From Bacteroidales bacterium (lineage in GTDB: Bacteria; Bacteroidota; Bacteroidia; Bacteroidales; VadinHA17): a stretch of DNA of 32,085 nucleotides. The notes under the pieces were generated by a model. It was not told the DNA's origin. It saw nothing but the letters and a program-made list of their open reading frames with translations, and made no database searches. Where the stretch lies: contig JANYIW010000122.1 in NCBI GenBank assembly GCA_025358645.1, positions 1-32,085 of the forward strand. The letters are read 5' to 3'. Positions 12,403-27,619 of the stretch are shown piece by piece. The first letter of the stretch is position 1; the number at the start of each line of letters is the position of its first letter. The translations under genes were made by a program, and so were the position numbers.

Positions 12403-12924
12403 ATGAAAGAAATCAGGTATCTATTATTAATTTTTGTTATTCTGATCTGTCTGGATTCATGCAGGAAGATAGTGCAATTGCCAGCAGTTCCTCATATTGA
12501 ATTTAACAACTTTACAATTTTCGATACAACAGATATTCTGGGCAATAAATCTAAGGGGGGAAGACTCAGGTTTCATTTTGAAGATGGCGATGGCGACCTT
12601 GGACTGAATGCACCATCAGATGGGATGGTGGATTCAACAAATTTGTTTTTCACTCTCTTCAGGAAAAAGGGAGGAGTTATGTTACCCACTCCGGACAATG
12701 ATCCATTAAAACCGTCATCCTGCAGGATACCATTTATGGAGAGGCTTGGGCAGAATAAAATATTGAAAGGAACAATCTCTGTTACTTTCGTTTACACATT
12801 CTATGAACCTAAAGATTCTAATATAATCAGATATGATTTCTATATTAAAGACAGGGCTCTGAACGAGAGCAATGTTGTTTCCACCACTGAAATAGCGCTT
12901 TCTGTAAATAATACGTATAAATAG
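12403..12924 (+). CDS. Hypothetical lipoprotein
   Basis: 173 aa with an N-terminal lipoprotein-like signal (MKEIRYLLLIFVILICLDSC) and an acidic FEDGDGDLGLN motif; follows der on the same strand. Confidence 0.75.
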   Translation: MKEIRYLLLIFVILICLDSCRKIVQLPAVPHIEFNNFTIFDTTDILGNKSKGGRLRFHFEDGDGDLGLNAPSDGMVDSTNLFFTLFRKKGGVMLPTPDNDPLKPSSCRIPFMERLGQNKILKGTISVTFVYTFYEPKDSNIIRYDFYIKDRALNESNVVSTTEIALSVNNTYK

Positions 12925-12929
12925 CCTTT

Positions 12930-15900
12930 TCACACTTTCACCCCGATCAGAAGGACATCATCGACCTGTTCATAAGAACCTTTCCAATCAAAATAGAATT
13001 TAGCCATAGCTTCCTTTTGCTCATCCATAGGGAGCTTTGAAACCTGCTCAATCATTCGTTTTAACCTTGCTATTTTCATTTTTTTGCCATCTGCTCCTCC
13101 AAATTGGTCGGGTAATCCGTCAGAGAACAGATAGATAGTGTCCCCTTCCTTAAGATAGTACTCCTGATCGTCGAAGAATTTCTCAATAACCGATTCACCT
13201 CCCACTGATGATCTGTTACCTTTAATATATAATGGTTCACCATCGAGTACGAGTATAACAGGTCGCATTGCTGAAGCGAATCTGATATGGCGTGTTGAAA
13301 TACTAAATTCACATACCACCATATCCATACCGTCATTGGAGACACCCAATTCCACATTCTGATTAAGTGTGGAGAAAATCTGTTCATCCAGCAGGCTAAG
13401 TATTTCGGAGGGTTTTGAAATTCTCTTTCGTGTAACTATATCCTGAAGGAGTGTTGATCCAATCATCGACATGAATGCACCAGGAACACCATGGCCTGTA
13501 GAATCAGCACAGACCAGAATAAACTTATCATCCTCAAGTTTATCGAACCAATAAAAATCACCACTAACAATATCCCTCGGATGGAACAGGATAAATGCAT
13601 CCTTAAAAGTATCTTTAAGTTTGTTGATATCTGGCAAGATGCTTGTTTGTATTCTCTTGGCATAGTTTATACTATCCGTAATCTCAATGTTCTGAAGTTC
13701 AATTTCCCCTTTCTGCTTCATTACAACACTGGTTCTGGCTGCAAGTTCTGATTCAAGGTATTCCTGAATCTTTTTTTGTGTTTTATCCCTTTCTCTTATT
13801 ATCAGAATTACAAAACCGGTCATAACAGCTATGGCAGACAGGATAAACCACCAGGTTCTATAGAAAGGTTTCTTGATCAGAATACTAATCGAAACCGGTG
13901 TTGCCTGAGAGAAACCATCTCCATTTACAGAAATAAGATTAAATTTGTATTTACCGTCACTCAGACTAAAAGTTGCTTCTCGTGAAGTATTCATTTTGCT
14001 CCAGTCAAGATCAACGTTTTCGAGAAAAGTACTGTAATAAACTTTTTCAGGTGAACTGAAATTAATACCCGAATAATAGACTTTGATCTTATACTTCATA
14101 AAAGGCAGGACAAAGGATGGTTGGTAAGGATATGACACATCATTTATCTCTATTATATTTATGTTATTTAATGGCGCATGCGCACTCTTCTTTTCCTTTA
14201 ACCGGTCATAGATAATTAAACCTTCAGTTGTCCCAATTAAGATTTTTTTGTCGTTCGATTCAAACATGCCTTCAGCATTGCACATTCCGACTTTAGCAAA
14301 ATCAGTCCCAAAAACTCTTACAGTTCCGGAATAAGAATTTATCATTGAAAATGCTTTGATATGACCAACCCAGATATTGTTATCTTTATCAGCCAGAATA
14401 CTATAGCAATAATTCGACATTAAATCATTTGATCGGTTAATTGCGGTAAGTGAATCGTTAATAAATTTGAATATCCCATTCCCTTCAGTTGCAGCCCATA
14501 TTGCACCATCGCTGGTTTGAGTAAATGAAAGTATTTTATTCCTGCTGCTTCCTGACATCGATACATTTAAGGTCTTTATATTAAATAAGGGATCAATCGT
14601 ATAAAGTTTATCACTCTCTGTACCAATATAAGCAACGCCTTCTCTTGTAAGAAATATTTTATTAATACTATTATGAGGCAATCCATTATTTATATCAAAT
14701 TTCTTCTTAATGTTCCCCTCTTTATCTAAAACAATTACCCCATTGGTAGTGGCCAGCCAGATATTCTTATTATCCATTTCAATATCTTTTATATCATCAG
14801 ATCCATAATCACCCGACCTGTAAATCCGTTTTACTGACCCGTTGCTATTTCTGACAAACAAGCCATTTCCGCCTGTTCCTATCCAGAGGTTCTTTGCCTG
14901 ATCGAGATAAAAAGATTTTATCTCTGAGTGTCCGATCTGATTTGTAAGATCTGTGAAAGAGAGAGACTTACCTGTATTCAAGTCAAAAATATGGAATCCT
15001 GCAGGTGTGCCAAGTAGATAATTGTTATCAATATTTTTTATGTAAAGAATATTATTTTCCAGCGGATTCTTACCGGGCGTATAATTGCTTAATGAATAGG
15101 ATGTCAGCATAGAAATTCCTTCCCCGTATAATCCGAACCAATAATTCCCTTCAAAATCCTGAAATACTAATTTTACATCATTCTCAGTCAGTCCGGAGTT
15201 AAGATCATAAAATTTCTCTGATTTCACTGCTGCATAATCATCAGACATATCAATCTGAATTACTCCTGAACCGGAGGTTGATATCCAGAATGAACCTTCT
15301 GAATCCTCGATGATAGATTGAACTTTAAGTGATTTCAACTCCGGATGGCCGGGGAGGCGCGTAAGGTCTTCACCCTTATCGGTTATTTTTAATTGAAACA
15401 AACCATTATCATCAGTTCCAAGAATAAATCTTGAGCCATCACCAGTCTTGTGGATCGAAGTGACACCGTAAGAATCAAATCCGTCAATGACTTTGATTAC
15501 CGAGATTGAATCTTTTTCCAGTCTGCAGACCAGAAGATTCTCCTGGGTACCAATGAGCATATTTCCTGAATTGGTAAAAGAAGCAGAAAACAATACCGGA
15601 TCAACTGATAGTGAGTACTGATGTACCTCCTCCGGGTTCAAAGGATTAACTGAAAAAACGGCCCTGCCTTGTGGTACTATGTAAATCAGTCCATCAGGTC
15701 CTTCAATAAGTTCACTTATGCTTTTTGTATTTGAAACAGGAACTGCAATCAGTTTATTATCCTTTGCATAAAGGACTGTCCCATCACTACAACCGAACCA
15801 CAATGTTCCCTGTTTATCTTTAAGGCTTTTTGTAGGGTACCGCCCGACTGAAGAATCCGGATATTGTACCCGGATAAAATTATAGCCATCAAACCTGGAC

Positions 15901-16091
15901 AGTCCGCCAGCAGTTCCGACCCATAGAAAACCATCGTTTGACTGAGTAATAGTATAAACAAAAGCATTTGGGATATCCCTCTCAATTCCATAATTCGTGA
16001 AGCTATAAGTCTGTCCGCTTGATATTGAAGAGAATAGAAAAAAGAACCAGACGGCGCTGATTAATATTTTAAAATTGATATTAAATCTCAT
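12930..16091 (-). CDS. Reg_prop beta-propeller + Y_Y_Y + TM + SpoIIE/PP2C-type serine phosphatase
   Basis: Signal peptide; repeated propeller motifs (NDGFLWVGTAGGLSRFDGYNF, EGSFWISTSGSGVIQID, KNLWIGTGGNGLFV, NIWVGHIKAFSMI); Y_Y_Y region; TM WWFILSAIAVMTGFVILII; SpoIIE core (HPRDIVSGDFYWF, CADSTGHGVPGAFMSMIG, LFSDGLPDQFGG). Confidence 0.93.
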   Translation of the reverse strand: MRFNINFKILISAVWFFFLFSSISSGQTYSFTNYGIERDIPNAFVYTITQSNDGFLWVGTAGGLSRFDGYNFIRVQYPDSSVGRYPTKSLKDKQGTLWFGCSDGTVLYAKDNKLIAVPVSNTKSISELIEGPDGLIYIVPQGRAVFSVNPLNPEEVHQYSLSVDPVLFSASFTNSGNMLIGTQENLLVCRLEKDSISVIKVIDGFDSYGVTSIHKTGDGSRFILGTDDNGLFQLKITDKGEDLTRLPGHPELKSLKVQSIIEDSEGSFWISTSGSGVIQIDMSDDYAAVKSEKFYDLNSGLTENDVKLVFQDFEGNYWFGLYGEGISMLTSYSLSNYTPGKNPLENNILYIKNIDNNYLLGTPAGFHIFDLNTGKSLSFTDLTNQIGHSEIKSFYLDQAKNLWIGTGGNGLFVRNSNGSVKRIYRSGDYGSDDIKDIEMDNKNIWLATTNGVIVLDKEGNIKKKFDINNGLPHNSINKIFLTREGVAYIGTESDKLYTIDPLFNIKTLNVSMSGSSRNKILSFTQTSDGAIWAATEGNGIFKFINDSLTAINRSNDLMSNYCYSILADKDNNIWVGHIKAFSMINSYSGTVRVFGTDFAKVGMCNAEGMFESNDKKILIGTTEGLIIYDRLKEKKSAHAPLNNINIIEINDVSYPYQPSFVLPFMKYKIKVYYSGINFSSPEKVYYSTFLENVDLDWSKMNTSREATFSLSDGKYKFNLISVNGDGFSQATPVSISILIKKPFYRTWWFILSAIAVMTGFVILIIRERDKTQKKIQEYLESELAARTSVVMKQKGEIELQNIEITDSINYAKRIQTSILPDINKLKDTFKDAFILFHPRDIVSGDFYWFDKLEDDKFILVCADSTGHGVPGAFMSMIGSTLLQDIVTRKRISKPSEILSLLDEQIFSTLNQNVELGVSNDGMDMVVCEFSISTRHIRFASAMRPVILVLDGEPLYIKGNRSSVGGESVIEKFFDDQEYYLKEGDTIYLFSDGLPDQFGGADGKKMKIARLKRMIEQVSKLPMDEQKEAMAKFYFDWKGSYEQVDDVLLIGVKV

Positions 16092-16103
16092 ATCGGATCT
16101 TTC

Positions 16104-17138
16104 TTATTTTTTGGGCTTCACTTTCTCATAACCTACTTTAGGCTGGTAAAAAGGTACGCCCCCAATGGGTGAACTAAAGAATTGCAATGCATCTCCTCTC
16201 TGGTTTTCAAGAGTAATTACAACATTATTATTTTTAACCAGTTCACCCTGTTTTTTATGAAACTGAAAGTCAAGTGATGATCCTACTTCCGGGGGTTCAA
16301 TCGGTATATTTGATTTGACCCAGTTATCCTCATTTGATATCGGGACCGAGATACCTTGTTTATATCTTGAAACCACCAGAATAGTACCATCATTATCCCA
16401 GTCAAAATTACTCTGCCTGATATATACGATACCGGTATCAATATAAGGATATATGTGTGCCACACTCTTAAAGTCATTCCACATCCTGAAATGATATGAA
16501 TATGTAAATGCGTTTGCTCCTTCAATAGGAATATTACTATTTTGATTACTGCTTAGAAAATACCTATAAAGATTTCCATCGTCACCGCTTATTCCTTCGC
16601 AGACAATTTTGAATATATTACTGTTCCATTTTGCATTGAAGTCCCCCTCAGAAGGATTAAACGGACCGAATGAATAATACTTGTTATCGTACTTTGCTTC
16701 ATTGCCAAATATCTTCGATGATAATAAGTTCCCTGATTTGTAATTCAATCCTTTTAACAGACCCCTGGATTCTTCATTTTTTTCAGGATCAACACCTTTA
16801 CCCCCATAAACGGAGAACTTTGTTTTTGTGTTGAATTCCCCCTGAATCTCATCATTTTCACCTCCGCAATCGGGGTCAAAAACTCTTATATAAAACGGTT
16901 GAGTATAATTCTTCAGGATGCTAAAGAAAAATATCTGGTAAAAATCAGCGTCGCCCCAGGATGTCTTACCATCCTTCCCAAAAGTTACCAGGAATGGAAT
17001 ATTTTCATCTTTACCCGGGACAGGCTGGGCATATAATCTGACGAAAACCGGAATCCCAAGTAAACAAACAAGCAGAACTATTTTAAATATTGATTTTTTC
17101 AATTCCATTAATGTCAAATTTAATGATTTCAGTATCAT
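16104..17138 (-). CDS. Exported protein of unknown family
   Basis: ORF 16104-17324. The likely start is the ATG at 17138 (ATGA overlap with the upstream stop) or 17108 (MELKKSIFKIVLLVCLLGIPVFVRLYAQ signal peptide). No recognisable domain; characteristic VTFGKDGKTSWGDADFYQIFFF...FYIRVFDPDCGGENDE...FNTKTKFSVYGGKG. Confidence 0.75.
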   Translation of the reverse strand: MILKSLNLTLMELKKSIFKIVLLVCLLGIPVFVRLYAQPVPGKDENIPFLVTFGKDGKTSWGDADFYQIFFFSILKNYTQPFYIRVFDPDCGGENDEIQGEFNTKTKFSVYGGKGVDPEKNEESRGLLKGLNYKSGNLLSSKIFGNEAKYDNKYYSFGPFNPSEGDFNAKWNSNIFKIVCEGISGDDGNLYRYFLSSNQNSNIPIEGANAFTYSYHFRMWNDFKSVAHIYPYIDTGIVYIRQSNFDWDNDGTILVVSRYKQGISVPISNEDNWVKSNIPIEPPEVGSSLDFQFHKKQGELVKNNNVVITLENQRGDALQFFSSPIGGVPFYQPKVGYEKVKPKK

Positions 17139-18571
17139 GGTTGTCGGAAAACAATAATATTTTTCGAAATACATGCTTCCTTTACCATTGCACCCGGTTC
17201 CGGTACTGTCGATACTATAAGCTGAATATTGTAAGAGCCGGGTTTGGTAAATCTTTTTTCTATATCCTTTCCAACTCCGATTGTTTCGTCTCCGAAGTTC
17301 CAGTAGTACTGTGATATATTCCATCCCGGAAGATTAGTACTGTCAGCGCTCAAGATTATTCTTTGATTTGTTCCAATCCTGTCGGGCGCTGAAATATAAG
17401 GTTGCTCAATTTTTGTTACTACTACAGTTTCAGATTTTTCATTATAGGTAACTTTTTTGGTAATAAGGTTTACTACGTCAAGTTGAACTGTGTATGTTCC
17501 GGGACCATTAAAACAATGTTCGACTACAGATCCGGTAGCTTTTTTACCATCGCCGAATTTCCATTCAAAGCGAAAAGGTATTGAGTCATATTTTACAGCG
17601 TTCTTTTCAAAAAAGCGGTAACAGTAATTATTTTCAAGAAGGGTGTCACATGAAGCTTTCCGAATGATATTCGAATTAAATTCGTAGATATCATCTTCTT
17701 TACTCCGATTTGAAGAAAAATAGCCTTTCTGAAGATCATCTTCTGCCACAAAAGCAAAATCATCAGCAGTGGAATTGATCGGCTCAGGCAGAAGTAGTGG
17801 ATTTTCCCAGGCACCATTACTTATTGAGGTATAATAAACATCGAGGTTGCCGATACCCCCGGGTCTGTTTGATGTAAAATATAATTTGCCCGAGGCGTGC
17901 ATGTAAGGATAATTTTCAGATCCCGCGGAATTCACAGTAGATCCAAGATTCACCGGACCGGACCAATTACCATCAATTAATTCACAGGAGTAAAGATCAG
18001 ATCCACCATGGCCCCCCGGCATATCTGAGGCAAAAAACATGGATTTTCCATCTCTGCTTATTGATGGCTGGCCCACATCAAACTGCGGATCATTAAATTT
18101 AAATGGTCGTATCGATACCAGATCTGTACCTGAAAGTTCAGCAATGAATATCCCACTATGATTTTTGAACTTCTTGTTCCCGGCAATTTTCCCTGTTTCA
18201 ACTTCACTTGTAAAATACACAGTTTTCCCATCAGGAGCAAAACATAACGGCCCGTTATTGAATTTGTTACTCCGCTCGCTTTTTATTACTCTTGATTTCC
18301 TGTATGCTGAGGTGTCTTTTTTCTCTGCTAAGTAAATATTGTAAAGACGGCTTCCATCATAACCAGTGCGATCTTTAATTGCACTAAACCGTCTGTCGGA
18401 GCAAAATACTATACCATCTTTGACTATCACAGGAGAAATATTATTAAAGCCATTATAATTAAATGGCATCCTTTTAATCCTATAAACAGAAGGTTGCTGC
18501 GCCTCAGTCTGAACTGAAACGAAAGGTACAATCAGAGCGAGTGTTATGATATATAATAATTTTTTCAACAT
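17135..18571 (-). CDS. PD40 (WD40-like beta-propeller) repeat protein with C-terminal PKD domains
   Basis: PD40 motifs LCFAPDGKTVYFTSE, PSISRDGKSMFFASDMPGGHGGSDLYSCELI, LYFTSNRPGGIGNLDVYYT; PKD motifs FEWKFGDGKKATGSVVEHCFNGPGTYTVQL and YYWNFGDETIGVGKDIEKRFTKPGSYNIQL. Confidence 0.88.
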   Translation of the reverse strand: MLKKLLYIITLALIVPFVSVQTEAQQPSVYRIKRMPFNYNGFNNISPVIVKDGIVFCSDRRFSAIKDRTGYDGSRLYNIYLAEKKDTSAYRKSRVIKSERSNKFNNGPLCFAPDGKTVYFTSEVETGKIAGNKKFKNHSGIFIAELSGTDLVSIRPFKFNDPQFDVGQPSISRDGKSMFFASDMPGGHGGSDLYSCELIDGNWSGPVNLGSTVNSAGSENYPYMHASGKLYFTSNRPGGIGNLDVYYTSISNGAWENPLLLPEPINSTADDFAFVAEDDLQKGYFSSNRSKEDDIYEFNSNIIRKASCDTLLENNYCYRFFEKNAVKYDSIPFRFEWKFGDGKKATGSVVEHCFNGPGTYTVQLDVVNLITKKVTYNEKSETVVVTKIEQPYISAPDRIGTNQRIILSADSTNLPGWNISQYYWNFGDETIGVGKDIEKRFTKPGSYNIQLIVSTVPEPGAMVKEACISKNIIVFRQP

Positions 18572-18575
18572 AATA

Positions 18576-19583
18576 CTAAAAGTACCTTGGATTAGCTGCG
18601 CTTACTTTATATCCGAATTCGTATCGCAAAATAATTTCGCTTGATCCTTTTGAATAAGAATTCATCCTGCCAACAGGATAATCATAAGAGAAACCGAACA
18701 TAAACTGCGGATTAAGCTGAACCTGAAGAATTCCTACAACAACTTCTTCTGATGTTCGATAAGAGGCGCCCAACCATATCAGATCCCCTAATATAAAATT
18801 GGCATTTATATCTAATTGCGTAAGCCTCTTTGTCTTCTTAAGAGAATAATCAATCAGTACCGAAGGTTTAAACTTGAAAACCTGTGAGAATGTAATAAGA
18901 CCGCCGGCAGAAAAGATAACATCATACTCTTTAACACTATGATATGGCTCGACAGAATTCGTTGATATGTTTTTCTTATAGTTCAGGAAAGAAGGAATAG
19001 AAGCTCCGGCAAAAAACTGATCGCTGAAATAGTAGACCCCGGCGCCTACATTTGGAAGAAGATATGGTTTGTCATTTGAACTAAATACCGGATCGTTTTT
19101 TGTTGTTGTCAGAATGCCTGTATAGTCTGTGTTTGACCTGTCAAAACCTCCTTTCAGACCGAGTGAAAGCTTCCCTTTTCCCAACTTTATATGGTAAGCG
19201 TAACTGGCATAAATACTCTGAGATTTAGTAAACCCGAATTTCATGAACTGAGCCATTATCCCGAGACCAACCTTGTCGTTTTTCAATGGAGCATTAAGCG
19301 AAGCCGTTTGAAAAACCGGAGCATCAGATATGCCCATCCACTGCATCCTGTATGACAAAAATGCACTCAGAGAACCCCTTGTCCCGGCATACGCGGGGTT
19401 GATCAACAGACCATTCTGCAGGTATTGACTATAGACAGGGTATCCCAGGCTTATCCCGGTTGCATCAGAAATTGCCTGACCCTGGACGCTTATGAAGGCA
19501 GTAAAGAAGAAAAAACAAAATAATACCTTTATCTTATTCATTCTATGGATATCACCAAAATACTTTACTAAAAACCTTGACAT
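18576..19583 (-). CDS. PorP/SprF-family outer membrane protein
   Basis: Signal peptide (MNKIKVLFCFFFFTAFISVQGQ); PorP/SprF hallmark YSQYLQNGLLINPAYAGTRGSLSAFLSYRMQWMGISDAPVFQTASLNAPLKNDKVGLGI; C-term FGFSYDYPVGRMNSYSKGSSEIILRYEFGYK. Confidence 0.95.
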   Translation of the reverse strand: MSRFLVKYFGDIHRMNKIKVLFCFFFFTAFISVQGQAISDATGISLGYPVYSQYLQNGLLINPAYAGTRGSLSAFLSYRMQWMGISDAPVFQTASLNAPLKNDKVGLGIMAQFMKFGFTKSQSIYASYAYHIKLGKGKLSLGLKGGFDRSNTDYTGILTTTKNDPVFSSNDKPYLLPNVGAGVYYFSDQFFAGASIPSFLNYKKNISTNSVEPYHSVKEYDVIFSAGGLITFSQVFKFKPSVLIDYSLKKTKRLTQLDINANFILGDLIWLGASYRTSEEVVVGILQVQLNPQFMFGFSYDYPVGRMNSYSKGSSEIILRYEFGYKVSAANPRYF

Positions 19584-22500
19584 TAATATCTTTTAAGAAT
19601 AATAAATCCACTCTTCTTGTAAACAGAACCACTTTGATCTATTGGAGTAATTTTCAGCATATAATAATATGTGCCTTCTGAAAGATCAAGTCCATTGGAG
19701 TTCTTCCCGTCCCAATCAGTCCATTCCTGATTATTTCGGTTAGAAGTGGAAAATACTTCAGTCCCGGCTCCATTAACAATACTAAGATCAAGATAATTAT
19801 CCTCCTTATTTAATCCTTCAATAACAAATTTATTATTCCATGCATCGCCATTTGGTGAAAAACCCTGTGGGATAAAATCTTTAAGTAATTCTATGGTTAC
19901 AGAATCCTTAAGGGTGCAAAGACCTCTGGAGATAGTCCATAAAAATGAGTTTTTACCTAAAGCCAGATACCTGACGATTGTTTGATAATTCGTTGTATCG
20001 TCGATAGAATTTGTTCCATTATAAAGAATCCTCCACGCTCCTGTTTCACCTGGGAAAAGCGATAGAGCTTTCATATGGTATATTTTCTCCACAGAAAAGA
20101 TCATAGTATCCGGCCCTGCATTAACCGGACTTGCCGGTAACGGGTCAATTCCTATATCAAAGACATTAGATATACTTGAACAACAGTCATTTAGACCTGA
20201 CTTAACAGTTCGTTTGTACTTTGTAGCCGCAAATAATGCCGGAGCCTGGTAAGTAGGGGTATTATCAGTTCCTGTAGCAGGTACCCATAAGCTCCCTCCA
20301 TCGGCGCTTTGCTCCCACAAATAATTAAAATTACCCGATCCTCCAGACAGGGTTATTCCGGTAATGATATCAGGGACTCTGCTATAACACACTTTTGTAT
20401 TGCCTGATATTATATTGTTTGTTATTAACGGAAGCACTGTAATGGTTATTGAATTACTGGTTAAAATACACGCGCCTGATGTTACCTGCCTTTTATATAA
20501 TGTAGTAGCTATTAGTGATGGAGGCGACATGGAACTTCCCAGAGTGGCGCCAGGAACAGGATTCAGGTTAGTTGTACTTGTCGAATCGAGCCATTGATAG
20601 CTAAATGTGCCAATTCCACCAGTGGCAACTGTTCCAATCAATTTATGAGGCTTTTGGCCATTGCAGATAGTTGTATCGGGAAGTCCACCCTGAAGAAGTG
20701 AGATGTTATTATTTAAAATTGGTTTATGAACAATGATTGTTATCGATTTGCTTATATCGGAGCAGGCTGAGGAAAAAACAGACCTTCTGTACCTGGTTGT
20801 ATCAGTCAGGAAAGGTGGTGGAAAATCACGATGCGTCGTATTAATCTCTCCACTGATGTCAGTCCAGGTATGAGATCTTGTGCTATCCTGCCATGTATAA
20901 GTATAAAATCCGTTTCCATCAAGAGGATTGGATCCAGTAAGTATTGCAGGTTTTGATCCTGAACAAATAACCTGATTTGCAGTGATAGTATTATTTCTAA
21001 TTACCGGAAAATCTTTCAGGAGAATAGAAGTACTTGTATTCACACAAACATCGTGTATTCCTGAATATACGACTCGCCGGAAGTAATATTGATTTAGCGG
21101 TGCCCTTTCAGGAAGCTCAGCAGGATTGTATCCGGCTCCATTGCTGATTCCTGTTGCAGTTCCCCATCCAGCCCCGTTTATATTGCTTTCCCACCTGAAC
21201 TTGTATAAATTATCTCCATCTCTCAGGGCCGGAGTAGTTGCAGAAGTTGTAGCTGTAAGATCAGTAAATGTCATTCCAAAACAGATGTCCTGTGGTACAG
21301 AAAGTATTTTATTGTTTCTTATGGTATCAAGAACTGAAATCTTAACTTTTGCAGTGGCGTCAATACAACTACCAGATTTTACAGTACGTCTGTACCAGGT
21401 AGTCTTAACAAGTCCGGGTGACGGGTCAAAATTCTTAGATGTAGCAATCGTTGATCCCCAGGTAGTTATATCGGTACTGTCCTGCCAGTTATAAGAAAGA
21501 GATTTTGTGGTTGGGACTATCAGATCAGGCATAAGTTGTTGTAATAAAGGAGGATTCCCTTTAAAACATATAGTATCCGGATTGCCAACAATATTATTCT
21601 TTATAAAAGGATGAACAGTAATTTTTAGCGGTTTACTTTTATCAATTATGAGCGGTGGACCGTTATCGGTTATTGTCCTCTGGAACCAGACAGTATCGGT
21701 AGGAGTTATTGCATCGGCCATTGTTGGTGTATAATTTGTCGGATCTGGATCATTTGCAAGAAGTATTGGTATTGAAAAGTTCTTGTCATAGCTTTTTTCC
21801 CATTTATAAGCATAGGTCCCTGATCCCCCGACAGGTTTGGTACCAGTTATCTTCGGAAGACGCATATTTGAACAGACAGAATCAACCAGATTGCCGGTAA
21901 CAGATGAACGAATCGAATTAAATAGAAAACCATTGAGAAGGGGAATGAAGGTTAAAAGGCTTTCTCCAGGAGAACCGGTTACTCCACCTAATGAGCCACC
22001 AGATCTGTTCCCGACAGCTCCTCCTGTAAAACTCTTAGTAACATTTATCGGATTTGAGATATTGTTAGTCAGGATCAGGCCGCCGCCGCCGCCGCCGCCT
22101 TCGCCAAATTGCCCATTATTATTTCCTCCTTTTCCACCGTTCGCAGAGATTTTTAATTCAGAGGTGGTAAATGGGGAAAAACTTTGCTGGTAAAGCGCAA
22201 TGGATCCGCCACCGCCGCCACCGCCTGCTCCACCACTACCATTGGCAGATATAGATGGCCATTCTCCATCAGCCTTAATTATTTTTCCTTTACCCTTAAG
22301 AGTATCACACATAATAATTATTATCCCTCCACCATGGCCTCCCGGAGAAGCAGTAGAACCTGTTAAATAAGTTGATGATCCGCCACCACCACCAAGGAAT
22401 ATACCACCATTCAAATCTGTATTTTTAATTGTCCTGTTTTGCAAACCATTACCACTCTGATTCCCAGCGCCACATGTACTACTTTCAACACCTCCATTAC

Positions 22501-23308
22501 CTCCTGCACCATAGTTTGAACCACCTCCTCCACCAGAATATCTCCCGTTGCCGCCGCCGCCGCCTGTAAAATTTGCTCCTTTCCCTTTGGAATAATCCGG
22601 AAAGTATGAAGGAATATCTGTGATATTCAGGAATACCTTAATTACCTGACTTTCTCCTTTAAAGCCTGAATTTGTGAAGCTTTCCGGATAACTGAATTTG
22701 TCATATATTGTAATATCTGTTGCTGTACAAATACCTGACCCCTGAGAAGTTGCACCGCCTGCAAAACCCTTCCCTGTAACGTCAATATTGGCTGCCAGAG
22801 AAAGAGTTCTTCCGACTATCATAGCCAGGACGCCACCGGTTTTTTTTGTACTGTCCCACGGCTGACAGGTCAGATTAGCTTTTACACTTGCTGAATTATA
22901 GAAGGGAACTTTTATTAGCTGAACTGCGCCTGCAATATTATAACTTTTCAAAATATTATTTGTGAAACTGATCATTTTTGTTCCCGTATTCACTGTCGCT
23001 ACTATAAGGAATTCACTTGAACCCGGGACTCCGAGAGATTCCCTGTAACTCCCGTATGAACCTGTTTCCGGTACATTAATAATTGACCCTTTCATCTGAA
23101 TAAGGAGCACGGTATCTAAGGGAGCAATAGAATCAACACTGTTCAGAGTAACATTGTCGGCACCCGGCCCGATTGCTGATACATGTCTGTAAACATTGAT
23201 CACACCACTGATCTGCTTATCCTGAGAAAAGAGTGAAACTGTTAATCCTGAAAGAATTAACAGACTTAAAATCATTATCCTAATATTGCGATCAGACCTT
23301 CCTATCAT
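19583..23308 (-). CDS. Large secreted Gly-rich adhesin-like protein with tandem repeats and a T9SS type-B-like sorting C-terminus
   Basis: ORF 19583-23479 overlaps the kinase 3' end; likely start 23308 (MIGRSDRNIRIMILSLLILSGLTVSLFSQ) or 23275. Poly-Gly region, about six Y(K/R)R-type repeats, C-terminal DFIPQGFSPNGDAWNNKFVIEGL...WDGKNSNGLDLSEGTYYYMLKI...KSGFIILKRY. Confidence 0.9.
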   Translation of the reverse strand: MIGRSDRNIRIMILSLLILSGLTVSLFSQDKQISGVINVYRHVSAIGPGADNVTLNSVDSIAPLDTVLLIQMKGSIINVPETGSYGSYRESLGVPGSSEFLIVATVNTGTKMISFTNNILKSYNIAGAVQLIKVPFYNSASVKANLTCQPWDSTKKTGGVLAMIVGRTLSLAANIDVTGKGFAGGATSQGSGICTATDITIYDKFSYPESFTNSGFKGESQVIKVFLNITDIPSYFPDYSKGKGANFTGGGGGNGRYSGGGGGSNYGAGGNGGVESSTCGAGNQSGNGLQNRTIKNTDLNGGIFLGGGGGSSTYLTGSTASPGGHGGGIIIIMCDTLKGKGKIIKADGEWPSISANGSGGAGGGGGGGSIALYQQSFSPFTTSELKISANGGKGGNNNGQFGEGGGGGGGLILTNNISNPINVTKSFTGGAVGNRSGGSLGGVTGSPGESLLTFIPLLNGFLFNSIRSSVTGNLVDSVCSNMRLPKITGTKPVGGSGTYAYKWEKSYDKNFSIPILLANDPDPTNYTPTMADAITPTDTVWFQRTITDNGPPLIIDKSKPLKITVHPFIKNNIVGNPDTICFKGNPPLLQQLMPDLIVPTTKSLSYNWQDSTDITTWGSTIATSKNFDPSPGLVKTTWYRRTVKSGSCIDATAKVKISVLDTIRNNKILSVPQDICFGMTFTDLTATTSATTPALRDGDNLYKFRWESNINGAGWGTATGISNGAGYNPAELPERAPLNQYYFRRVVYSGIHDVCVNTSTSILLKDFPVIRNNTITANQVICSGSKPAILTGSNPLDGNGFYTYTWQDSTRSHTWTDISGEINTTHRDFPPPFLTDTTRYRRSVFSSACSDISKSITIIVHKPILNNNISLLQGGLPDTTICNGQKPHKLIGTVATGGIGTFSYQWLDSTSTTNLNPVPGATLGSSMSPPSLIATTLYKRQVTSGACILTSNSITITVLPLITNNIISGNTKVCYSRVPDIITGITLSGGSGNFNYLWEQSADGGSLWVPATGTDNTPTYQAPALFAATKYKRTVKSGLNDCCSSISNVFDIGIDPLPASPVNAGPDTMIFSVEKIYHMKALSLFPGETGAWRILYNGTNSIDDTTNYQTIVRYLALGKNSFLWTISRGLCTLKDSVTIELLKDFIPQGFSPNGDAWNNKFVIEGLNKEDNYLDLSIVNGAGTEVFSTSNRNNQEWTDWDGKNSNGLDLSEGTYYYMLKITPIDQSGSVYKKSGFIILKRY
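20120..21905 (-). repeat. About six degenerate tandem protein repeats (~90-100 aa each) inside the adhesin
   Basis: Recurring pattern 'NNxI...(I/V)C.......GxGxYxYxW(Q/E)xS...WxxI.....Y.P..L..TTxYRRxVxSGxC', e.g. ITANQVICSGSKPAILTGSNPLDGNGFYTYTWQDSTRSHTWTDISGE...TTRYRRSVFSSAC and ISGNTKVCYSRVPDIITGITLSGGSGNFNYLWEQSADGG...ATKYKRTVKSG. Boundaries approximate. Confidence 0.75.
22079..22564 (-). repeat. GGC/GCC trinucleotide microsatellites encoding poly-Gly runs in the adhesin
   Basis: ccgccgccgccgccgccgcc at 22080-22099, ccgccaccgccgccaccgcc around 22207-22226, and gccgccgccgccgcc around 22550-22564. Confidence 0.8.
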
Positions 23309-23375
23309 TAAAACCTGATATGAACTGCTAATATAACTATTTTCTTGATTCTTTTTTATATATAGGCACTTAAAG

Positions 23376-26300
23376 TCATCCCGGTTTTTCGACTGTGTAC
23401 ATAACCGGCAATTCAAAATAAAAAACAGAGCCCTTCCCAACTTCTGATTCAAACCAGATCCTGCCGTTTGCACTTTCAATGTATTTTTTTGCTATCGATA
23501 ACCCGAGACCCATGCCTGACGACTTGGTAGTAAAATTAGGCGTGAAAAGATTTTTTCGCAAATCTGCCTGTATACCTGATCCGTTATCTGAAATCGATAC
23601 AACAACTTTATCTCTTTTTACATCAAGATTTAACATTATTAGTCCTTCTCGTCCGGTTGGAATTGATTGTATCCCATTCTTTATAAGATTAGAAAAGACT
23701 CCGTTAAGCTGCTCTTTATCAGCGTAAACAACTATTTTACTCTCATGAGGCCAATGAACGCTGAAGGTTACATTATCAGTATTCTTAAATAGTTCAAGAT
23801 TTATCCTGATCTGGTCGAGGATATTGACCTCTACCGGATTAGTTACAGGCATTTTGGCAAAAGACGAGAATGCGCTGGCAATTGAGGAAAGATTATCAAT
23901 ATATTCAATCTGGTTTTTAGTAAATCGTTCAAGCATCTTTTCAAATCCGGGGACTTTATCATTCCATGATTTAAAAAGCTGCTGTACATTTAATTTCATT
24001 GGAGTAAGTGGATTCTTAATCTCATGGGCAATCTGCTTGGCCATTTCTCTCCATGCATATTCCCTTTCTGAGTTTGCCAACTTATGTGTACTATCCTCAA
24101 TCTCATCAACCATCCTGTTATATTGTTTAACCAGCTCTCCTATTTCATCATTTCCGATATAAGTAAGATGTTCACTCTTCTTTCCCACACCTACGGTAGC
24201 AAGTCCTTTACTGAGCATTGCCAGCGGGGAAGTGAGACGTCCACTGATAAATACAGCAAGACTCATTGTTATCAGGATCAGAAGCAGAGTAAAATTAGTA
24301 ACAGCAACAATGAGGTTTGAAATCTCCTTTGCAAGTACACTCTGCATCCTGAAATAAGGCAGATTCAAATAAGCAATAACTTTATTTTCAGCGTTGAAAA
24401 AAGGAATATATGCTGATAAATACTCAAGCTCTCCGATTTTTTCTTTCTGGAAATATTCACTTTTGGCAAGATGTTTGAGATTATTAAATACGGTATTGTT
24501 AATTCGCTGGCTTGTAAGGTCCCTATCAAAAATTTCCTGCCGTGAAGTTGCGATAAGAAACCCGTTAATATTATAAAGATTAATATCCGTATTGAAAACA
24601 TTTGAAAGTTTAATCAGTAATTCATTCAATGATGAGTACCCATTGCCTTTCCAGTCAGGTGAAAGATACTTTTCCATCGAAAGTTTACTATCGAGATCGA
24701 GATAAACAGAGTTAAGTTTTTCTTTTATATTTTCATAATGTTTCGCCTTGTACTGACTTATTGTAATATACGCCACTACAATACCAATCAAAATAAATGA
24801 GAATAAGAGTATTCCTATATACGAGAGTTGCAACTTCTGTCGGAAGTTGAAAATATTCACACGCTTTGCTACCGGCCTTCTGATTAGAAGAATGACCATG
24901 TTTGAAAATAACAGTATAAAAGCGAATAGATACGCGAAGGAGATTATAATATCACCTGTAGTAAGGTCCGGTCTGGTTATAATTACCGTTGCATTCCCAT
25001 TTTTATAAAGTACATGTTTAAACCCATCTGTTCTGAAAATTCTGTAATCTGAAAATTTATCAACATATTCGGCATCAGTTTTATCATAAGGAAACTCAGG
25101 GGTTCTAAGAACAATCTCTCCGTTAATATATTTTGCAAAAGAGTAGTCTTTTAACCCTGCATACCCATGGTATTTCTTGTCAAGAAGCAATTCGGAATAT
25201 CCGGGCTGGAAAACATTTACATCGCTATATAATTCAATGAATAAACCATTTATTGTGTTTGTTCCTGATTTATAATATGCTCTGCAAAGATAATATGATC
25301 GTCCTCCCTGATTATCAATGAAATAAAAATTTGTATTGGTCAGTCTGTGGCCATATCTTTTTATACGTGCATCAAAAAAACCAAAACAGTTCTGAGTCAT
25401 TTCGGTACCTGAACCAAATTGCAAAGGCTGATCATTATGGCACAGATAAAAGCTGAAATGATAATTTTTCCAGAACCCGGTGAAATATGTGTCTTGCAGA
25501 TAGTTTGATATTCTTTCGAAATTGTCTTTATCAAAATTTTCAACCTTCATCATGCTGGTGAGTGAAGTGTCCTTTTCCATTACCGACCATAAGTCGAGCA
25601 AGAGGTGTTCAGCTTCAGGGTCATTTTCCGTTGAAAAAGAAACTGCCTGTATCTTAATATTTTCAGTTGCTTTTTCTTCAGACAGAATGGTAATAAAATA
25701 AAGAAAATAGATTCCTGAAATGATGGAAAAAGCTACAGTCATATTAAACAAACCTACATTTCTTTTCATTGAAATCCAGATGCACATTACCAGGACAGAA
25801 TAAAAAACAGCCAAAGGGATCAGAGTTCCGGGCTTGTCATAGAAAAAGAATGTCGGAACCACAAGAGAAGGAATTAAAGAAAAGATAACTTTACTTGTTT
25901 TGAATAGTTTTACACTTTTTAATATTTTAAACAGATAAAACACCGGAACCAAAAGAAGCAGGATAACGGATGTGAACCCTGCCATACTGGACATATTCAA
26001 GTCCAGCACTTTATAAGTCTCAAAATTTATATTGGAAGTTGAAATAAACTGACCGAATACCCATTGATATAAACTTAAAATAAAAGCTCCACCCATCAAC
26101 AAAACCAACAGGAACAGATAACTTTCTATTCTTTTACTCTCATTTCGTTCACTGACCGGAAAATGACGGTATAACACGGTGGTAAAAGCTGCAGCAAGAA
26201 TACTGAAAACCATCAGATGCCCTAAAGATGGTATTAACTTATTCATGGAAAACCCGTAGGGTGAAAAAAGTTCAGTCTGAAAGATAGCATGAGGTATCCC

Positions 26301-27074
26301 GGTAAAGAGAATAATTATGTAAATCAAAGTAAATACCAATAGGGAAACGCATATTCCAATCAGCACATTTCCCTTCCTAACCAGTAATTTAACAAGTTCG
26401 AAAGTAAGAAGAATGATCAGTATAAAAGCACCTGCCCAAAAACATAACGGGATGAAAATAAAACAAGTATTGCCTTTGACTTCAGGAAAAGAGAGGGAAA
26501 AGAGAAAATCGCCTTCTTTATCAAAAATATGATAATCAGATGCTCCCTTGTTGGTAATAAAGTCAACGTTTTCTGATACCATGAACTCCTTTTCGAATCC
26601 ACTTTTAATGATGTTATTTTCAAAACTATAATCAGTGTGTAGCCTTAGGAGTCCTATTACTTTTTCATTTCCGGACTGAATCGTTTTGGTAAGAAACCAT
26701 CCATTCTGCAAAAAAACCAAAGGCTTGTTAAAAAGAGAGTCTACAAAGACTGCAGGTACATCAAACTCATTATCAGACCAGTAAATAAGCTTATTGTCTA
26801 AATATTCAAGGATGCTGATCCTGTTCTGCTTTGCTATTGAAAAAAGGTTATTTTCAGAGATTGATCCATGATGATTCACATTCGCCAGAATAGGTTTCAT
26901 GGCATTAAGGCAATCCTCCATAATAGTCTCTTTCGCAACCAGCGTTTTGTTAAACATCTTCGTTCTGAAGCGATACTCAAAATCACTGAAATAAACTGAT
27001 TCTGCCACTAGTGCCAGGATCATGAGTACAACAGTCAGAATAGAGAGAAATATAGGATAACGATTAGCTCTCAT
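23376..27074 (-). CDS. Large multi-pass (about 12 TM) sensor histidine kinase, NtrY-like (HAMP-HisKA-HATPase)
   Basis: Nine or so N-terminal TM segments, a periplasmic region, two further TM helices, a second periplasmic region, a last TM, HAMP-like ISGRLTSPLAMLSKGL, H-box EMAKQIAHEIKNPLTPMKLNVQQL, N-box NLIKNGIQSIP, G boxes SISDNGSGIQ and TKSSGMGLGLSIAKKYIESANGRIWFESEVGKGSVFYFELP. Confidence 0.93.
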   Translation of the reverse strand: MRANRYPIFLSILTVVLMILALVAESVYFSDFEYRFRTKMFNKTLVAKETIMEDCLNAMKPILANVNHHGSISENNLFSIAKQNRISILEYLDNKLIYWSDNEFDVPAVFVDSLFNKPLVFLQNGWFLTKTIQSGNEKVIGLLRLHTDYSFENNIIKSGFEKEFMVSENVDFITNKGASDYHIFDKEGDFLFSLSFPEVKGNTCFIFIPLCFWAGAFILIILLTFELVKLLVRKGNVLIGICVSLLVFTLIYIIILFTGIPHAIFQTELFSPYGFSMNKLIPSLGHLMVFSILAAAFTTVLYRHFPVSERNESKRIESYLFLLVLLMGGAFILSLYQWVFGQFISTSNINFETYKVLDLNMSSMAGFTSVILLLLVPVFYLFKILKSVKLFKTSKVIFSLIPSLVVPTFFFYDKPGTLIPLAVFYSVLVMCIWISMKRNVGLFNMTVAFSIISGIYFLYFITILSEEKATENIKIQAVSFSTENDPEAEHLLLDLWSVMEKDTSLTSMMKVENFDKDNFERISNYLQDTYFTGFWKNYHFSFYLCHNDQPLQFGSGTEMTQNCFGFFDARIKRYGHRLTNTNFYFIDNQGGRSYYLCRAYYKSGTNTINGLFIELYSDVNVFQPGYSELLLDKKYHGYAGLKDYSFAKYINGEIVLRTPEFPYDKTDAEYVDKFSDYRIFRTDGFKHVLYKNGNATVIITRPDLTTGDIIISFAYLFAFILLFSNMVILLIRRPVAKRVNIFNFRQKLQLSYIGILLFSFILIGIVVAYITISQYKAKHYENIKEKLNSVYLDLDSKLSMEKYLSPDWKGNGYSSLNELLIKLSNVFNTDINLYNINGFLIATSRQEIFDRDLTSQRINNTVFNNLKHLAKSEYFQKEKIGELEYLSAYIPFFNAENKVIAYLNLPYFRMQSVLAKEISNLIVAVTNFTLLLILITMSLAVFISGRLTSPLAMLSKGLATVGVGKKSEHLTYIGNDEIGELVKQYNRMVDEIEDSTHKLANSEREYAWREMAKQIAHEIKNPLTPMKLNVQQLFKSWNDKVPGFEKMLERFTKNQIEYIDNLSSIASAFSSFAKMPVTNPVEVNILDQIRINLELFKNTDNVTFSVHWPHESKIVVYADKEQLNGVFSNLIKNGIQSIPTGREGLIMLNLDVKRDKVVVSISDNGSGIQADLRKNLFTPNFTTKSSGMGLGLSIAKKYIESANGRIWFESEVGKGSVFYFELPVMYTVEKPG

Positions 27075-27091
27075 AATATCAATTTCATGAC

Positions 27092-27565
27092 TTATTCATG
27101 GTGATATGGCTCTCCTTTAATAATTGTAAATACCCTGTAAAGTTGTTCAAGAAACAATAATCGTACCAGCTGATGAGGGAACGTCATTTTTGAGAGAGAC
27201 ATTTTATAATCGGCTCTGGCATAAACCAATTCAGAGAAGCCCCAGGGGCCGCCAATAATGAATAATATCCTTTTTTTTGGAAGGAAAAACATTTTCTCCA
27301 AAGCCCCGGAGAACTCGATTGTTTTAAGCTCCTTGCCATTTTCATCAAGTAAAATAACATAATCATCACCACCGATCGACTGAATAATTTTAGTTGCCTC
27401 TTTGACCTTTTGCTCCTGTATCGGCATATTCCTTGTATTTTTTACATCAGGAAGTGTTACAATATCAAAAACAGAGTATTTTTTTATACGATTTGCATAA
27501 AGATCAACTAATTCTGCCATGTTCTTATCAGTCGTTTTTCCTGTTTGCAATAAGGTGATCTTCAT
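27092..27565 (-). CDS. rlmH: 23S rRNA (pseudouridine1915-N3)-methyltransferase RlmH
   Basis: 157 aa; SPOUT motifs FIIGGPWGFSELVYARADYKMSLSKMTFPHQLVRLLFLEQLYRVFTIIKGEPYHHE. Confidence 0.97.
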   Translation of the reverse strand: MKITLLQTGKTTDKNMAELVDLYANRIKKYSVFDIVTLPDVKNTRNMPIQEQKVKEATKIIQSIGGDDYVILLDENGKELKTIEFSGALEKMFFLPKKRILFIIGGPWGFSELVYARADYKMSLSKMTFPHQLVRLLFLEQLYRVFTIIKGEPYHHE

Positions 27566-27611: not shown

Positions 27612-27619
27612 CAAAAATA
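27612..27619 (-). promoter_or_regulatory. Bacteroidota -7 box (TATTTTTG) upstream of rlmH
   Basis: caaaaata on + (27612-27619) = TATTTTTG on -, a perfect TAnnTTTG about 46 nt upstream of the rlmH ATG; no clear -33 element. Confidence 0.45.

Follow-up and report, generated by a model that had tools for sequence, protein, structure and literature searches.

Type-B substrates of the type IX secretion system (T9SS), gliding adhesins among them, are anchored by way of PorP/SprF and PorE. In Porphyromonas gingivalis, PorE carries TPR and OmpA domains and binds peptidoglycan (PMC9143113). There it is part of a complex with PorP and a type-B protein, and operons that combine these three kinds of gene are known from Flavobacterium johnsoniae (PMC9143113, PMC12618676). 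Another P. gingivalis T9SS surface protein, PorA, influences PorXY-SigP signalling (PMC7712824). A phosphatase of the type considered below is known from Pseudomonas aeruginosa, where the phosphorylation state of SiaC depends on the balance between SiaA and SiaB (PMC7647112). The literature that we found on PorP/SprF- and PorE-anchored type-B substrates contains no proposal of sensing through a dedicated phosphatase receptor, and our searches returned no paper on SpoIIE phosphatases with T9SS or with two-component regulator propellers.

We analyzed a stretch of 32,085 nucleotides from a Bacteroidales genome (the window), which contains a block of seven minus-strand genes running from 27565 to 12930. 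The block sits on contig 317 of a host genome of 4.06 Mb in 414 contigs, and within the genus it is conserved on all contigs that span the region. Named relatives in the public collection are mostly metagenome-assembled genomes (MAGs) of environmental Bacteroidales. The ORF list and profile searches placed all seven genes where a preliminary description had put them, with the domains that it had named. On the other strand, DUF4783 and nadC flank the block upstream, and a 173-aa gene, der and era flank it downstream.

Features of the seven-gene block and its borders, in window coordinates; module membership is as predicted from gene order
Feature	Position	Strand	Remarks
SPO (phosphatase)	12930..16091	(-)	1053 aa; Pfam Reg_prop + SpoIIE; in module
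UNK (undescribed, secreted, beta-rich protein)	16104..17108	(-)	334 aa from likely start; constant partner of SPO; in module
PorE-like PD40 propeller with two PKD domains	17135..18571	(-)	Pfam assignment; in module
PorP/SprF shuttle/anchor	18576..19583	(-)	PF11751 220 bits; TIGR03519 209.5 bits (cut-off 90.55); in module
Type-B T9SS adhesin	19583..23308	(-)	AgmC-like N-terminus, Ig-like repeats, CHU_C; in module
Large membrane histidine kinase	23376..27074	(-)	HAMP, HisKA, HATPase; goes with rlmH; outside module
rlmH, housekeeping 23S rRNA methyltransferase	27092..27565	(-)	PF02590 169 bits; RlmH model 197 bits; likely transcript head
Convergent 173-aa gene	12403..12924	(+)	Block boundary, followed by der and era; marker of the empty site of genome G057; outside module
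Promoter-like -7 box TATTTTTG (TAnnTTTG)	27612..27619	(-)	Upstream of rlmH

The tight junctions reported earlier were borne out on the sequence, with 17 bp between rlmH and the kinase gene, 67 bp between kinase and adhesin, a one-base overlap (TAATG) between adhesin and PorP, 4 bp between PorP and the PD40-PKD gene, and 12 bp between UNK and SPO. The ATGA overlap described for PD40-PKD and UNK is probably a misread start. The UNK frame has its first ATG at 17138 (16104-17138), an upstream codon that is not conserved in relatives; genus members begin at the ATG equivalent to window position 17108, which leaves a gap of about 26 bp. For the kinase, described with 12 transmembrane (TM) segments, a simple hydropathy count finds 11 hydrophobic segments, which gives 11 to 12 TM. 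As described, no response regulator, anti-sigma factor or antagonist was found among the other window genes scanned, and the SiaB kinase, SiaC antagonist and SiaD cyclase were likewise absent from the block and from the scanned rest of the window.

The adhesin gene encodes a CHU_C type-B signal (59 bits) and is followed directly by the PorP/SprF gene; its match to AgmC_N, at 141 bits, lies below that model's cut-off. The PD40-PKD protein matches the T9SS_PorE model with 167 bits, over the propeller only, and Pfam and NCBIfam searches found neither TPR nor OmpA in it, so the full PorE architecture of TPR, propeller, regulatory domain and OmpA-like peptidoglycan-binding domain is not present. 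Longer PD40-PKD copies elsewhere keep OmpA. We considered whether phosphatase-linked modules are distinguished by having lost OmpA and rejected this because some of them retain the domain.

SPO has an N-terminal signal-like segment and one TM segment at approximately 745-768. Its periplasmic part (residues 22-746) aligns with the hybrid two-component system (HTCS) sensor 4a2l (E 1e-31), and residues 779-1050 align with SiaA 6k4e (E 1e-29), with the PP2C motifs intact at 843, 862, 989 and 1044. The score against the SiaA equivalog NF038263 is 163 bits, from the PP2C part only and below the curated cut-off of 700. By these alignments, SPO is predicted to be an HTCS-type double-propeller periplasmic sensor fused to a SiaA-type PP2C (SpoIIE) domain.

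UNK had no match in Pfam, NCBIfam or the PDB sequences. It carries a signal peptide, whose end appears to fall at a conserved glutamine; no lipobox is visible, and Pfam shows no T9SS signal. Its conserved motifs include DPDxGGxxDE and N[FY]DWDxDG, with invariant acidic motifs. A first structural model (26 sequences, pLDDT 74.5) gave no significant fold match. The model from a deeper alignment (72 sequences) reached pLDDT 91.1 and pTM 0.88 and is nearly all beta; Foldseek returned six matches below 1e-3 for this second model (best E 4e-4, TM ~0.26), led by DeCLIC N-terminal domains. These weak beta-sandwich matches (DeCLIC N-terminal domains, CUB pairs and PNGase F) are insufficient to name the fold. 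From the model we infer that UNK consists of tandem beta-sandwich domains, which perhaps bind metal. Confinement of UNK to T9SS-bearing genomes was uninformative, as SprA occurs in 283 of the 295 class genomes.

We collected neighbourhoods from the genus and order, from a collection of 84,980 species genomes, which was scanned with an alignment of UNK, and from the 295 genomes of the class. Gene calls were mechanical ORFs, mostly on MAG contigs, and took their labels from BLAST comparison with the window proteins and relatives of these. After deduplication, 137 UNK loci remained, which are related by descent and do not count as independent events. SPO came directly after UNK, on the same strand, in 125 and did not in seven, and the contig ended in five; SPO thus follows UNK in 125 of the 132 distinct loci with coverage. 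A PD40/PKD-family gene precedes UNK in 113 of the 137 loci, and PorP and the adhesin also lie upstream, in the same order, in 92, although in distant loci the adhesin was labelled on weak similarity. The order adhesin-PorP-PD40-UNK-SPO is kept at sites away from rlmH, and in distant families too. A second copy of the module, without the kinase, lies on contig 28 of the window's own genome, which has nine SpoIIE and ten PorP matches in total, two of each lying together. Judged by gene order, the functional unit is the five-gene module at window positions 12930-23308. In a relative of another family, one locus (L091:7973-17412) has two adhesin/PorP sets in tandem and one UNK-SPO pair.

Three families (f32, f38 and f49) have the UNK-SPO pair without adhesin, PorP or PD40. 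Such neighbourhoods show UNK and SPO to be dedicated partners, with or without adhesin genes beside them; the pair is the core, and T9SS genes have joined it or dropped away from it repeatedly. Its ligand need not be the adhesin complex. At adhesin-free loci, a gene of 807-912 aa, viewed by its first residues, lies divergent from UNK. In the seven UNK loci where SPO is not adjacent, a PKD-family protein is encoded upstream. The scanned proteins preceding UNK included some with PD40-PKD-OmpA, some with PD40-PKD, one with TPR-PKD and one with PKD alone. PKD is the constant element before UNK, and we take it as the best candidate for the UNK-contacting surface.

In a maximum-likelihood tree of 80 Reg_prop-SpoIIE proteins, all UNK-linked phosphatases fall in one clade (SH-aLRT 100) and the 26 unlinked paralogues fall outside it. 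The single apparent exception inside the clade (L275) is one gene broken into two pieces, the first of which adjoins UNK. When we added the best full-length unlinked SPO matches from seven genomes whose UNK gene has no neighbouring SPO, 7/7 again fell outside the clade (SH-aLRT 99). Because unlinked proteins were chosen away from UNK, this is a measure of clade purity among the sampled proteins and not a census; it indicates that UNK adjacency marks one lineage of Reg_prop-SpoIIE phosphatases. The window SPO lies in this clade and adjoins UNK, and the two form a UNK-SPO pair as defined here. The UNK and SPO trees both separate window-locus copies from copies elsewhere; the PD40 tree agrees for the copies elsewhere, and the PorP tree is less clear.

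A sister group of SPO has an upstream partner of its own, a secreted TPR protein of ~780 aa (L134-L138, L302 and L313), and this pair is also present in the window's genome on contig 343 (L137:3149-8401). The TPR partner at L302 carries a caspase-like C14 domain. Different clades of Reg_prop-SpoIIE phosphatases thus seem to have different fixed partners. One class-level genome of 3.3 Mb (G103) holds an unusually large set of 35 SPO matches at E < 1e-40.

The reading that we favour, tentatively and at somewhat less than even confidence, is that the five-gene module encodes a PorE/PorP/adhesin complex equipped with its own outside-in UNK-SPO sensor and a partner-switching output, with the kinase outside the unit. 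PorP would hold the adhesin at the surface, and the PorE-like protein would sit in the periplasm beneath PorP. UNK would bridge the adhesin assembly and the periplasmic propellers of SPO. The PP2C domain in the cytoplasm would be switched by altered assembly, load or ligand binding of the adhesin, and through it SPO would dephosphorylate a SiaC- or STAS-type antagonist encoded elsewhere. It is possible, if doubtful, that the adhesin's assembly or ligand state passes from PorP through the PorE-like PKD protein and UNK to the inner-membrane phosphatase receptor, as a T9SS counterpart of TonB-receptor surface signalling with a partner-switching output. The retention of adhesin and export-helper genes beside UNK and SPO suggests that a large group of mostly uncultured Bacteroidales monitors the adhesin from inside the cell. 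Counting against the proposed mechanism, the PorE-like protein of the window is missing the regions by which PorE attaches to peptidoglycan, SPO is not next to UNK at seven loci, and no antagonist gene linked to SPO was found in the neighbourhoods.

The output probably runs through SiaC- or STAS-like antagonists. The window's own genome encodes five SiaC antagonists, one of them beside a SiaB-like DUF6272 gene, and RsbW-like (HATPase_c_2) genes away from the block. The DUF6272-SiaC pair lies on contig 227 (L324:906-1866), with no phosphatase in the stretch seen, and is a candidate downstream switch for SPO.

The main rival to adhesin sensing, which we consider somewhat less likely, is that UNK-SPO senses something else in the envelope, such as a glycan, a metal ion or envelope stress, and controls the amount of adhesin, making the adhesin genes the target and not the input. 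The occurrence of UNK-SPO without adhesin in several families fits this reading, as do the invariant acidic motifs of UNK and the HTCS-like periplasmic part of SPO. HTCS sensors usually sense glycans. However, UNK stays with PKD proteins even where SPO is not adjacent, which suggests that UNK is also physically on the PD40/PKD side.

Much the same independence of the parts could mean that the adhesin/PorP/PD40 genes and UNK-SPO share only an address and a promoter and are co-regulated without acting together, given that UNK-SPO and PorE/PorP/adhesin units each exist alone. We give this little credence, because the combination persists in distant families, at separate sites and in the same gene order, and because the window's genome has only nine SpoIIE and ten PorP matches, yet two of each adjoin.

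The neighbourhoods of the histidine kinase are of another kind. A kinase match was present in 60/60 relatives searched, and UNK in 37/60. With E < ~1e-80 taken to define true kinase relatives, the kinase occurs in 18 genera outside the window's genus, and UNK in 3 of those 18. Seven loci have rlmH and the kinase without the module (L111, L114, L116, L118, L119, L120 and L124). In genome G057, the site is empty: the kinase is followed directly by the 173-aa gene, der and era, and the module is missing (L113). In G042, the der-side gene still flanks the module (L090), and the kinase lies on a separate contig beside nadC (L109). The kinase is absent from 12/12 full modules elsewhere whose upstream side is covered. 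Kinase and module adjoin in the genus and several other groups (58 distinct loci), and in such loci the opposite-strand der and era are equally persistent, so this adjacency says little about function. On this distribution, the kinase gene looks like an older neighbour outside the unit, and the module may have been inserted beside it or lost from some lineages. Some loci encode a membrane protein of 374-376 aa between kinase and adhesin (L094:10999-12123, L206:1984-3114 and L208), which by its first residues looks like an AI-2E-type transporter.

The TAnnTTTG motif is the -7 element of Bacteroidota promoters. Of 27 distinct relatives, 21 have this box ahead of rlmH, in nearly all cases 47-63 nt from the start, and the rlmH upstream regions contain 22 matches against 4.1 expected from mononucleotide shuffling, a count that kinship inflates. 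The kinase-adhesin gap has seven matches against 4.3 expected, mostly in loci with long gaps, and shows no clear enrichment. A single long transcript across the block is plausible in the genus, and the kinase is probably co-transcribed with the module in this lineage. A further promoter-like sequence, TAAATTTG, lies at window positions 17115-17122 (-), a few bases 5' of the likely UNK start. Many genus members have a similar motif in the PD40-UNK gap (13 matches against 1.8 expected by shuffling, with kinship left in), and the motif is possibly an internal start for UNK-SPO.

That all seven genes form one sensory-secretion operon, with kinase and phosphatase both serving the adhesin, draws on the 58 adjacent loci, the tight junctions and the conserved box before rlmH with no clear one before the adhesin. 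Against it, many genera carry rlmH and the kinase with no module, G057 shows an empty site, kinase and module lie apart in G042, and 12 modules have no kinase; these observations rule out the kinase as a module part and leave the seven-gene arrangement unlikely. The preliminary description had tied the adhesin to two signalling outputs, and neighbourhood conservation upholds the phosphatase, which follows UNK almost throughout and lies with adhesin, PorP and PD40 at several sites; the kinase, found beside rlmH in module-free genera, drops out, leaving one dedicated output.

The module is a concrete candidate for adhesin sensing with named genes. UNK represents a new protein family, modelled with confidence, and the relatives of SPO have a known type of substrate. 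The phosphatase to which HTCS-like sensors are here coupled has a fixed, secreted partner, and a clade of orphan Bacteroidota phosphatases gains a testable input.

Compared with the PorE-PorP-type-B systems of P. gingivalis (PG1035) and F. johnsoniae (PorE/SprF-like loci), the window likewise encodes the three kinds of protein together, which are predicted to form a complex here as well. In contrast to known PorE, the window protein has two PKD domains and lacks TPR and OmpA, and the module adds UNK and a phosphatase receptor to the PorE/PorP/type-B set. As with PorA and PorXY-SigP, a T9SS surface protein is proposed to relay a signal inward; the PorA output consists of a histidine kinase and an ECF sigma factor, whereas the output linked to the window module is a phosphatase. 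SPO resembles the SiaABCD system in that SiaA is the nearest PDB and NCBIfam match to its PP2C domain and that SiaC and SiaB-like genes are present in the genome, but its sensor is an HTCS-type propeller, and siaB, siaC and siaD do not lie beside it. Finally, SPO shares periplasmic propellers and a Y_Y_Y-like domain with the Bacteroides HTCS sensors (4a2l and 3v9f); unlike those sensors, it has a SpoIIE/PP2C phosphatase as its output in place of a histidine kinase, receiver and HTH regulator, and it has a constant partner gene, UNK.
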